A stretch of DNA of 64,000 bases from Rhodopirellula islandica (GTDB taxonomy: Bacteria > Planctomycetota > Planctomycetia > Pirellulales > Pirellulaceae), in contig NZ_LECT01000006.1 in NCBI RefSeq assembly GCF_001027925.1, positions 62,001 to 126,000 of the forward strand. Reading direction: 5' to 3'. Below are positions 3,095-6,488 of the stretch, one piece after another. The notes beneath the pieces were generated by a model. The model did no database searches. It was not told the DNA's origin and was given only the letters and a program-made list of their open reading frames with translations. The first letter of the stretch is position 1, and each line of letters starts with the position of its first letter. Made by a program: the position numbers and the translations under genes.

Positions 3095-3368
3095 GTGGCA
3101 CCTGAAGGGTTTGTTGGGAGGAGAGGTCGGGAAGTGTTTGCGGCGGGATCCATTGAATTTTATGCGTTCGCAAACTCGAAGTCCTGGGATCAAAATGTCT
3201 GATTGCGCCACCTTCTCCGCCAAACCTTTGGCTCAAAGGGCTTCATTTCGCGCGGGTTTCATTCCAGTTTCGGGCCTGCGTTGTGCCTCAGCGTCGTCCC
3301 ATGGAAGCCGAACGACTTTGCTAAACTAGGGCGTTTCTTCTTCTGGTTCTCTTGCTTGAATGGTCGTT

Positions 3369-4460
3369 ATGGCTCGCTGTTGGTTGGGATGTCTCGGTTT
3401 GGTTCTGCTACTTGGATGCAGCAAATCTGGTTCCAGTTCCTCGGAACAATCGCAATCCGGCCCTGAAACGGTGGGACAGGCTTCGGTGGATGCCTCCGGT
3501 TTTCCGCGTCAGTGCGGCAACTACACGGTGCTGGGGATTCTGACCGACAATCAGGACAATTCGAAAGCCAAAGAGAATGCCGAAACGACGTTGTTGCGGC
3601 ATCCGAATGTCGGGTGCTTGGTTGGGCTCTGGAGCCAAAACACGCCGATGATTTTGGCGGGGCTTCGGAGCAGCGACGCGGTCGGAAAAGTTTCGGTGGT
3701 CGGTTTCGATGAGCACCCGGACACTTTGGCTGGTATCCGCGATCAGTCCGTCTTTGGCACGGTGGTGCAGCAACCCTATGCGTTTGGGTATCGCAGTGTG
3801 CAGTGGCTGACGACGCTGGTGAAAGGCGGGCAAGTCGATGTGCCTGAGTCAGGGATGATCATCATTCCTCACCGGTCGATCACCCTCGACAATGTCAATG
3901 AGTTCGCGGCGGACGTGGACGCGATGAAATCCGGTGAAGGCCCGATTTTGTCCGGTGAGGAGAAGATCGATGGGGCGGGGGTTCGTGTCGCCTACATCAC
4001 CAATTCATTGGACCCGTTTTGGACGCTGGCCGATGCGGGCTGCAAACGAGCGGCGGAGCAGTTTGGTTGTGAGGTCGATGTGCAGATGCCTTCTTCCGGT
4101 TCCATCGAAGAGCAAAAGCGATTCTTGGAATCCAACGTGGCCGCGAACGTGGATGGGATCGCAATCAGCCCGATCGATCCCGAGAACCAAGTGGCGATGA
4201 TCAACGAGGCGTGCCAAGCCACGACGGTGATTTGCCAAGACAGCGATGCGCCAGCCTCACGCCGGAAATTCTACCTGGGCACCAGCAACTACTTGGCTGG
4301 ACGGGCGGCCGGCAAATTGATTCAAGAGGCCATTCCCGAGGGTGGCGAAGTGATGCTGTTCGTTGGCAAGATGGAAGTCCTCAACGCTCAAGAACGCAGC
4401 CAGGGCATCATGGACGAACTCGCGGGGAAACCAATTCCAGCGATCTTGCAAGGCAATTGA
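3369..4460 (+). CDS. Sugar-binding lipoprotein with swapped halves (circular permutation)
   Basis: 363 residues. The N-terminus MARCWLGCLGLVLLLGC is a lipoprotein signal with the lipid Cys at position 17; an ATG at 3360 is an alternative start. What follows is a type I periplasmic binding protein (ribose/ABC sugar family, Peripla_BP_4-like), but in the wrong order. Residues about 48-185 match the usual C-terminal half: YTVLGILTDNQDNSKAKENA, VVGFDEHPDTLAGI, VFGTVVQQPYAFGYRSV. Residues about 205-360 match the usual N-terminal half: VAYITNSLDPFWTLADAG, GIAISPIDPENQVAMINEA, CQDSDAPASRRKFYLGT, AGRAAGKLIQEAIPEGG, VGKMEVLNAQERSQGIMDEL. The protein stops where the family would go on into the second lobe. 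Each half looks intact and there is one signal peptide at the front. No ABC permease or ATPase is adjacent. Sugar binding is inferred. Confidence 0.8.
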   Translation: MARCWLGCLGLVLLLGCSKSGSSSSEQSQSGPETVGQASVDASGFPRQCGNYTVLGILTDNQDNSKAKENAETTLLRHPNVGCLVGLWSQNTPMILAGLRSSDAVGKVSVVGFDEHPDTLAGIRDQSVFGTVVQQPYAFGYRSVQWLTTLVKGGQVDVPESGMIIIPHRSITLDNVNEFAADVDAMKSGEGPILSGEEKIDGAGVRVAYITNSLDPFWTLADAGCKRAAEQFGCEVDVQMPSSGSIEEQKRFLESNVAANVDGIAISPIDPENQVAMINEACQATTVICQDSDAPASRRKFYLGTSNYLAGRAAGKLIQEAIPEGGEVMLFVGKMEVLNAQERSQGIMDELAGKPIPAILQGN

Positions 4461-4966: not shown

Positions 4967-5725
4967 TCAGCGACCTTCGCGAAGCCGATAGCCCAGGAAA
5001 TTGTCCAGCTCGGCTTCTTTCTCGATGGCTTGGACGGTTCGTTCGATGTCGTATTCGACTCGGCGAAACATCACCAAATCCGGTTCCACAATCGCGTAGC
5101 AACTGCGAGGGTCGCCATCACGTGGTTGGCCCACACTGCCGACGTTGATCATCAGTTTCGAATTGGGATCGGCCAGTGAGTACCCCGTGCCGGTGTCCGC
5201 CGGGCGGACGAAGCGTTGTTCCATCGTGAACACACCCGGAACATGCGTGTGGCCTTGGAAGCAAACTCGCGGGACCAGCGAAAATAGCTTTTCCATCTTC
5301 TTGGTGTTCTGGGCGTCTTCCGGGAAGACGTATTCGTTGGTTGGTCCACGTGGCGAACCATGGACAAACAACCAGTGATCTTCGCGTACGGTTCGCGGCA
5401 ACGCACACAGGTATTCGATCCGTTTGCGGCTGGCGCCTGGATCGTCACCGGTTGCTTCGAGTTGGCTGCGGGTCCAGAAAATCGCTTGCTCGGCCGCGAC
5501 GTTGAATCCTTCGGGGTCGAACAGAGAACTGCTGTCGTGGTTCCCGAGGACACAGAAATCGAACCCCATCACGATGTCCAGGCACGCACAGGGTTCGGGG
5601 CCGTAGCCGACCACGTCGCCCAAACAGACGATGCGATCGACCTTTTGAGCCTCGACATCGGCCAGAACGGCTTCGAGCGCGGAGAGGTTTCCGTGAATGT
5701 CGCTAAGAATGGCTGTGCGTGTCAC
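4967..5725 (-). CDS. Calcineurin-like metallophosphoesterase (copy 2)
   Basis: 252 residues with a GTG start. It has the full metallophosphoesterase motif series: AILSDIHGNLSALEAVL (D-x-H), CLGDVVGYGPEP (GD), LGNHDSS (GNHD), FVHGSPRGPTNEYV (H) and CFQGHTHVPG (GHTH). These residues bind two metal ions in this superfamily (YfcE/MJ0936-like). It begins 4 bp after the stop of a same-length, clearly related gene, so the two form an operon born from tandem duplication. The substrate is unknown: phosphodiesters, cyclic nucleotides or phosphoproteins are all possible in this family. Confidence 0.85.
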   Translation of the reverse strand: MTRTAILSDIHGNLSALEAVLADVEAQKVDRIVCLGDVVGYGPEPCACLDIVMGFDFCVLGNHDSSSLFDPEGFNVAAEQAIFWTRSQLEATGDDPGASRKRIEYLCALPRTVREDHWLFVHGSPRGPTNEYVFPEDAQNTKKMEKLFSLVPRVCFQGHTHVPGVFTMEQRFVRPADTGTGYSLADPNSKLMINVGSVGQPRDGDPRSCYAIVEPDLVMFRRVEYDIERTVQAIEKEAELDNFLGYRLREGR

Positions 5726-5729
5726 CCGA

Positions 5730-6488
5730 TCAATGTCCTCGTTTCAGCCGATCGCCCAGGGCATCGTCCAGATCGGGTTGTGCGTAAATCTTTTGAGCCG
5801 TCTTCTCGAAATCGTATTCCACTCGGCGGTAGGTCAACGTTTGGGCATCGGTGTCCAAGATGGCGTAGCACGATTGGTTGTTTTCGTCTCGCGGTTGGCC
5901 AACGCTGCCGACGTTGATCATCAGTTTGTTGTTGCCCAGAGCGTACGTGTGATCGCACTCGTCCGGCGTGACGAATTCGCACTCGGTGGTGAACACACCC
6001 GGCAAATGCGTGTGCCCCATGAAGCAGTACTTGTCGATTTTCCCGAACAAGATTTCCATCTTGCGAGCATCATACATGTACTCGGGGAAGACGTATTCGT
6101 TCGTCGGGTCGCGGGGCGAGCCGTGGACAAATTTGAAATCGCCGTCATCGATGAATCGCGGCAACTCACCCAGGAAGTCCCAGCGAGCGTTCATCTGAGC
6201 GGGACCGCCTTTGCCGCTGTCCAATTCGTCGCGGGTCCAGTAGATCGCCCGCAGAGCCATCGGGTTGAATCCGTCAGGATCAAACAGTGCTGCCTGATCG
6301 TGGTTGCCCAGGATGGTGTGTTTGCATCGCCGCATCACCAGATCCAAGCACTCACACGGGTTGGGACCATATCCAATGATATCGCCCAGGCATATGACTT
6401 CTTGGACCCCGACCTTGTCGATGTCTTCCAGAACCGCTTGCAGCGCTTCAAGGTTCCCGTGGATGTCGCTGATCAACGCTCGCTTCAC
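5730..6488 (-). CDS. Calcineurin-like metallophosphoesterase (copy 1)
   Basis: 252 residues, GTG start with a fair ribosome site (GAGGAA, about 7 nt upstream). Motifs match its downstream neighbour: ALISDIHGNLEALQAVL, CLGDIIGYGPNPCECLDLV, LGNHDQAALFDPDGFNP, FVHGSPRDPTNEYVFPE and CFMGHTHLPGVFTTE. Both proteins also share a C-terminal SVGQPRD block and the ending YRRVEYDFEKTAQ. All metal ligands are present, so both copies should be active. It is divergent from tsaB, with about 108 bp of shared upstream DNA. Confidence 0.85.
   Translation of the reverse strand: MKRALISDIHGNLEALQAVLEDIDKVGVQEVICLGDIIGYGPNPCECLDLVMRRCKHTILGNHDQAALFDPDGFNPMALRAIYWTRDELDSGKGGPAQMNARWDFLGELPRFIDDGDFKFVHGSPRDPTNEYVFPEYMYDARKMEILFGKIDKYCFMGHTHLPGVFTTECEFVTPDECDHTYALGNNKLMINVGSVGQPRDENNQSCYAILDTDAQTLTYRRVEYDFEKTAQKIYAQPDLDDALGDRLKRGH

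Follow-up and report, generated by a model that had tools for sequence, protein, structure and literature searches.

This locus raises the question of whether a sugar receptor whose two halves stand in swapped order is a genuine and working protein, and with what it would work. The gene lies on the forward strand at 3360..4460 of the window (the whole 64,000-nucleotide stretch of Rhodopirellula islandica DNA that was analysed). We consider its product, with a probability of about 0.85, to be a type I (RbsB/glucose-binding-like) receptor, lipid-anchored and permuted circularly by nature, that serves a CUT2-type sugar ABC importer. The observations behind this reading are the order of the parts, the fold, conservation with purifying selection, kinship with unpermuted receptors of transporter operons and the co-occurrence of a permease.

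Part order, fold and sugar cleft

The open reading frame starts at the ATG at 3360 and ends with the TGA at 4458-4460, giving 366 amino acids; the ATG at 3369 is in frame, three codons further on. The signal peptide (3360..3419) has a lipobox (LLLGC) with a predicted lipidated Cys at residue 20 and is followed by a tether, residues 21-50 (3420..3509), which is mostly disordered (model pLDDT <50 at residues 16-42). The old C-terminal part comes next, as residues 51-190 (3510..3929), and contributes the cleft positions N94, F116, D117 and Q137. A linker of 17 residues, 191-207 (3930..3980), leads from the old C-terminus to the old N-terminus. The old N-terminal part, residues 208-357 (3981..4430), carries N215, F220, W221, S270, D294 and R346 and, according to the profile alignment and the model, runs through the end of the first helix of the second lobe. 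Residues 358-366 (4431..4457) form the new C-terminal tail.

The Pfam model Peripla_BP_4 (PF13407) matched the whole protein with an E value of 7e-50 (170.3 bits; curated cut-off, 35.1) in two stretches of swapped order. Residues 218-358 matched profile positions 10-151, and residues 53-157 (C6:65516-65830) matched positions 151-257 in a scan of the protein's own genome, both parts scoring above the cut-off. In a profile of unpermuted relatives (307 positions, prefixed h), residues 51-190 correspond to h167-306 and residues 208-357 to h3-152, so that the canonical part order of PF13407 members is absent. The Thermotoga structure 2qvc likewise paired as two swapped pieces (query 210-357 with chain 5-153, query 56-157 with chain 156-257). 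The earlier note had described a C-half placed before the N-half behind a single lipoprotein signal, with new ends early in the second lobe. The frame, motifs, and Pfam and profile matches agree with this order; the profile alignment, the model and a solved near-copy agree with the position of the ends; and the lipobox at C20 is the only one, no second signal peptide being seen in the protein sequence. Among proteins cut at the same place (site A; sites B and C are described below), C20 is invariant in aligned sets of 13 and 17, and the linker is 12 to 22 residues long across 30 dereplicated proteins (rows). No close paralogue was found in the same genome, where the sole other match is 25% identical. 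Further along the window, two similar tandem ORFs of 252 amino acids on the reverse strand (4967-5725 and 5730-6488) look metallophosphoesterase-like by eye.

The swapped order might be an assembly or sequencing artefact in which two half genes were misjoined. Against this, the same order, which had been suggested as something to look for in related planctomycetes, was found in the same-genus genomes G002 (99% identical) and G004 (89%), each a single contig, and in the 30 site-A rows. It was also found in PDB 5er3 from R. baltica SH 1, which aligned in one piece over residues 26-366 (E 1e-208). G002, G004 and 5er3 together exclude a misjoin for practical purposes, and the solved near-copy rules out misassembly. 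The dN/dS of 0.03-0.06 between the window gene and six same-genus genes speaks against a misjoin as well, leaving it a negligible probability; a decaying gene was rejected on the same values. These values come from a simple Nei-Gojobori count and are only approximate for five of the six pairs, in which dS is >1.

An AF2 model, built from 17 sequences of the same swapped order, had a mean pLDDT of 87.1 and a pTM of 0.81, with pLDDT ≥90 at 277 of 366 residues. Its best PDB match by Foldseek was 5er3 (TM 0.93 by target length, rmsd 2.2, 318 columns, 93% identity). Canonical receptors, which came next, aligned over only about 150 columns. The proposal that both halves are intact and close into a two-lobe fold, for which structure prediction had been named as a check, is therefore upheld by a confident model that superposes on 5er3. 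The receptor has very probably been kept intact and functional with its halves swapped.

The sugar cleft was compared at 15 positions that we take to be the ligand contacts of RbsB, in 20 sequences (site A, site B and unpermuted) rotated to canonical order. Ten columns were invariant. Seven of these equal RbsB, whose F15, D89, R141, N190, F214, D215 and Q235 correspond to F220, D294, R346, N94, F116, D117 and Q137, and three differ from RbsB family-wide (S9 to N215, F16 to W221 and N64 to S270). RbsB N13, R90, S103, I132 and F164 are not conserved in the receptors compared, R90 being replaced by S or A. The conserved positions are contributed by both swapped halves. The two-lobe fold in the model and in 5er3, together with the cleft columns, places the protein among type I (cluster B) receptors, with binding predicted. 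The differences from RbsB indicate that the ligand need not be ribose. All matches to NCBIfam receptor models were far below cut-off, and none names a ligand.

Transporter partner and the sensor alternative

The partner genes of a CUT2 system, an RbsA-like ATPase and a BPD_transp_2 permease, adjoin the receptor in relatives and stand apart from it, but co-occur with it, in the window's group. Among dereplicated rows with at least 3 kb downstream, with gene names taken from Pfam, both genes lie beside 49 of 53 unpermuted, 13 of 27 site-A (about half) and 3 of 3 site-B receptors; one more site-A receptor adjoins an ATPase only. The 13 site-A rows without transporter neighbours are the window's group (Rhodopirellula, Neorhodopirellula, Roseimaritima and kin) plus L093. 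The window gene itself falls in the short-flank class of this count.

The window genome has three BPD_transp_2 permeases, none on the receptor's contig. On contig C1, an ATPase (86.9-88.4 kb) and a permease (88.3-89.7 kb) form an unlinked pair with no receptor beside it (L059). Compared at full length, the C1 permease had its highest scores among permeases that adjoin site-A receptors (311 bits, 39-45% identity), the best score beside unpermuted receptors being 226 bits; its score is raised by an insert that is common within the main site-A clade. The C1 ATPase hardly discriminates, with 479 bits at best beside a site-A receptor versus 473 beside an unpermuted one. The insert consists of about 90-100 hydrophilic residues after the GGIDLSIGS helix. 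In the 11 permeases aligned, it is present in the C1 permease (L059:6311-7735), L090, L095, L168 and L094 and absent in L050, L052, L176, L227 and two unpermuted systems. Judged by topology, the loop that carries it may presumably be periplasmic.

The co-occurrence of permease and receptor was assessed in 39 chosen genomes. A close orthologue of the C1 permease (at least 51% identity, best piece E ≤4e-82) was found in 20 of 20 genomes whose site-A receptor stands apart, meaning on a different contig or at least 20 kb away, which is less sure in fragmented assemblies and in G005 (short flanks). None was found in 15 receptor-less genomes (six of the same genus and nine others without a receptor match at 1e-20). 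These gave distant permease relatives only (≤43%, E 1.9e-29 or weaker), and one of the nine others, G049, gave no match at all. In G044, G037, G030 and G055, where a site-A receptor lies beside transporter genes, permeases matched at E 6e-43 to 8e-55. The co-occurrence spans related genomes, several with fragmented assemblies, and does not represent 20 independent cases. In G023, G025, G137, G212 and G216, a single contig carries both the receptor and the permease, separated by about 20-28 kb. An operon that came apart in the window lineage is the simplest history.

The earlier note had proposed that the protein may be a sensor since no transporter genes are adjacent. In this alternative, the permuted receptor would no longer take part in transport and would instead be one subunit of a sensor, a conceivable partner being the kinase-like gene that lies beside several such loci. 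No transporter gene was recognised beside the 13 of 27 site-A rows mentioned above, including L007, L080 and L088 of the window's GTDB genus, and a kinase-like gene adjoins the receptor in L044-L047. The kinase-like group, however, was not found at L040-L043, in the window genus, and it also adjoins unpermuted receptors in transporter operons (L071, L072 and L074). The distribution of the permease orthologue, present wherever the receptor stands apart and absent from the receptor-less genomes, also argues against a sensor, as does the receptor-less ATPase/permease pair elsewhere in the genome. The sensor proposal was thus not borne out and is unlikely. For the transport receptor, the predicted course is that it would bind a sugar in its cleft through the usual closing motion and that the bound sugar would pass to the permease of the unlinked C1 pair.

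The kinase-like genes belong to one similarity group, which occurs near the receptor in 13 loci, often divergently oriented (L044-L047, L049, L050, L052, L054, L071-L074 and L078). The two members tested are small-protein-kinase-like, one of them below the Pkinase cut-off, and the group may cohere only through the kinase domain.

Occurrence, cut sites and number of origins

A receptor match at E ≤1e-20 was obtained in 146 of 241 genomes of the GTDB family. In 46 of the 146, the match was a single colinear piece across the swapped junction, 39 query-like and 7 starting later as site B. These 46 genomes had one match each; the other 100 had two matches in 97 cases and one in three (G039, G116 and G238). 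The permuted order was confirmed in all 42 examined of the 46, the remainder being G122, G124, G125 and G126. At the phylum level, 13 of 392 evenly drawn genomes matched at E ≤1e-50, ten with a one-piece site-A-like match, one with site B (G829) and two unpermuted. A scan of 84,980 species genomes gave 232 relatives, and among the best 80 of these (79 loci) 24 loci were permuted (17 A and 7 B), 22 planctomycete by name and two labelled only 'bacterium'. Within the same best 80, loci of Verrucomicrobiota, Pseudomonadota, Bacteroidota and Acidobacteriota were unpermuted wherever the gene was sufficiently complete. A colinear match should rank high in such a scan, which makes the result a mild sign that the permutation habit is planctomycete.

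Permuted proteins and unpermuted relatives are up to about 70% identical in related genomes and often share the same transporter-operon setting. Unpermuted receptors with transporter genes were seen in L107 (TBK1r) and L111 (Rhodopirellula sp. JC639), indicating that both orders occur under related names. The earlier note's expectation that natural permutations of this class are rare held in general, in the literature searched, and failed for this bacterial group, where permutations recur.

Three cut sites were recognised, all in helix-to-strand connections according to the secondary structure of the window model. Site A, that of the window gene, lies at about h152|h165 (ends h151-170, starts h159-174), between helix 341-355 and strand 55-62. 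Site B (ends h223-224, starts h219-227), transferred to the model through profiles, lies between helix 94-104 and strand 111-115 and is found in L020/L099, L021/L101, L096-L098, L100, L102 and L227; the AF2 model of a site-B protein reached a pLDDT of 42, from 7 sequences only. Site C belongs to a related subfamily (L060-L067 and L199-L203, L063 being incomplete at a contig end), with ends at h124-127 and starts at h121-128 of that subfamily's own profile; transferred in the same way, it lies between helix 310-324 and strand 329-335. An ATPase piece was found near 4 of 8 site-C loci examined, with short flanks. The window genome carries an unpermuted member of this subfamily on contig C16 (L002, L068:7029-8345), and no ABC transporter genes of the kind sought were recognised in the 14 kb around it.

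For the number of origins, 176 proteins were dereplicated at 93% identity to 102 rows (66 unpermuted, 30 site A and 6 site B). The fewest order changes in a quick tree of the 102 rows were four. The second tree, of 81 rows after removal of 8 long or remote rows and thinning of 13, also required four, with three for site A from the 5th to the 95th percentile of bootstrap trees. The third tree comprised 70 of 106 rows, the 102 plus four added loci, among them L227 (site B, from a one-contig genome of another family) and L228 (site A); left out of the added loci were L229, with the same match pattern as L093, and the remote L232. This tree required six changes, four for A and two for B, stably across bootstrap trees. 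A tree of site C (13 C rows, 15 unpermuted rows of the subfamily and 4 outgroups, without the incomplete L204 and L209 and without second copies) required five.

The few-events explanation would trace each cut site back to one ancient permutation, or assume fewer events still, with the unpermuted relatives inside the group being reversals or transfers. The change count cannot separate gain from loss, and if only the well-supported (starred) branches of the 70-row tree are considered, no more than three changes are required for A and one for B. AU tests, whose p-values are uncorrected for the number of tests and which were run after the trees had been seen, retained a single clade for main A plus L228 (p=0.227), for L019 plus L176 (p=0.255) and for site C (p=0.278), so that site C was counted once. 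L019 and L176 also resemble each other closely (N part, 73%), and L228 is ambiguous. Three distinct cut sites, on the other hand, are incompatible with one event, and the unpermuted form is present in several phyla. The AU test rejected all site A as a single clade (p=0.0092 in a first test and 0.0006 in a later one), as well as site B (p=0.017). Main A gave p=0.0136 with L019 and p=0.0011 with L176, and site A gave p=0.029 without L176 and p=0.058 without L019. In L019, L176 and L227, the two parts taken separately are both closer to unpermuted proteins than to the main A or main B clade. A few-events history is accordingly very unlikely.

The AU results indicate at least two origins for site A, two for site B and at least one for site C. 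A fair minimum is thus about five origins, and the best count is seven. The permutation seems to have arisen repeatedly and separately in Planctomycetota, at three loops, in the window family and in a subfamily related to it. A chimeric origin of the scattered permuted genes, from parts of different proteins, was considered and rejected for L019, L176 and L227, given the closeness of their parts to unpermuted kin rather than to the main permuted clades; L228 is ambiguous in this respect. An ATPase and a permease adjoin each of L019, L176, L227 and L228, which speaks against these genes being damaged or stray.

Lipid anchor and known permuted receptors

A tandem duplication with fusion of the copies would have given rise to the permuted gene, after which the first copy would have lost its front, behind the signal, and the second its back. 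No duplication intermediate was seen among the loci examined. The new ends are located away from the cleft, where a helix of the second lobe connects to a strand, and the lipid anchor would accordingly now be attached to the second lobe instead of the first. Independent swaps of the same kind would have occurred in related lineages, at the site-A loop and at two others.

By a home-made pattern, a lipobox was found in 27 of 30 site-A, 5 of 6 site-B and 54 of 66 unpermuted proteins, and in the site-C subfamily in 9 of 13 permuted and 14 of 15 unpermuted ones. The available text of PMC4990184 proposes that lipid anchoring may favour permutation. The unpermuted relatives here are mostly lipoproteins too, so anchoring alone does not distinguish the permuted proteins, and the tether idea, as given in that text, is weakened as a full cause. 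Anchoring may permit or favour permutation but is no sole explanation. A bolder and tentative reading, which we hold to be possible and rather doubtful, is that planctomycetes have re-cut anchored sugar receptors repeatedly and adaptively (at least five and perhaps seven origins, at three helix-to-strand loops). The anchor would have been relocated each time, and the permease partner in much of the main site-A clade has an extra domain in a loop that may face the receptor. On this reading, the position of the anchor would be under selection as part of the way in which receptor and transporter dock.

A natural circular permutation is usually encountered as a single old event in a given family. 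The repeated permutation at several sites is the part that would surprise a specialist. The family offers a natural experiment on two matters: the way in which permutations originate and reach fixation in a functioning operon, and whether transport depends on where a receptor is lipid-anchored.

The closest known protein is PDB 5ER3 of R. baltica SH 1, in effect an orthologue, with the same order and 93% identity over 318 structural columns. It was released on 2015-11-25 under the title of an ABC transporter solute-binding protein. No paper on 5ER3 or on permuted planctomycete receptors was found in the open literature, most subscription papers lying outside the search. A structure public since 2015 thus turns out to be permuted, and naming from a domain match alone hides the permutation. 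In the glucose/xylose-binding protein of Thermotoga maritima (2h3h, 2qvc and 3c6q) and in Escherichia coli RbsB, both halves are homologous to those of the window protein and the order is canonical; RbsB has most of its cleft columns in common with the window family.

One naturally permuted class was found in the literature searched. According to the available text of PMC4990184, TpMglB-2/Tp0684 of Treponema pallidum and its relatives ('Type Ic') are natural permuted type I sugar receptors, lipid-anchored, glucose-binding and able to close, reported mostly from treponemes and Gram-positive bacteria. Like these, the window protein is a circularly permuted type I receptor, as seen in the profile alignment and the structure match. 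Tp0684 aligned with the window model by Foldseek over 236-251 columns, more than canonical receptors did, with an identity of only 12-13%. As described in that text, Tp0684 is cut in the first lobe, with the first three strands moved to the C-terminal end. The window protein, in contrast, is cut after the first helix of the second lobe, sites A and B both lying in the second lobe and site C at the lobe crossover. Relative to this one class, cut elsewhere, the cut of the window protein is new.
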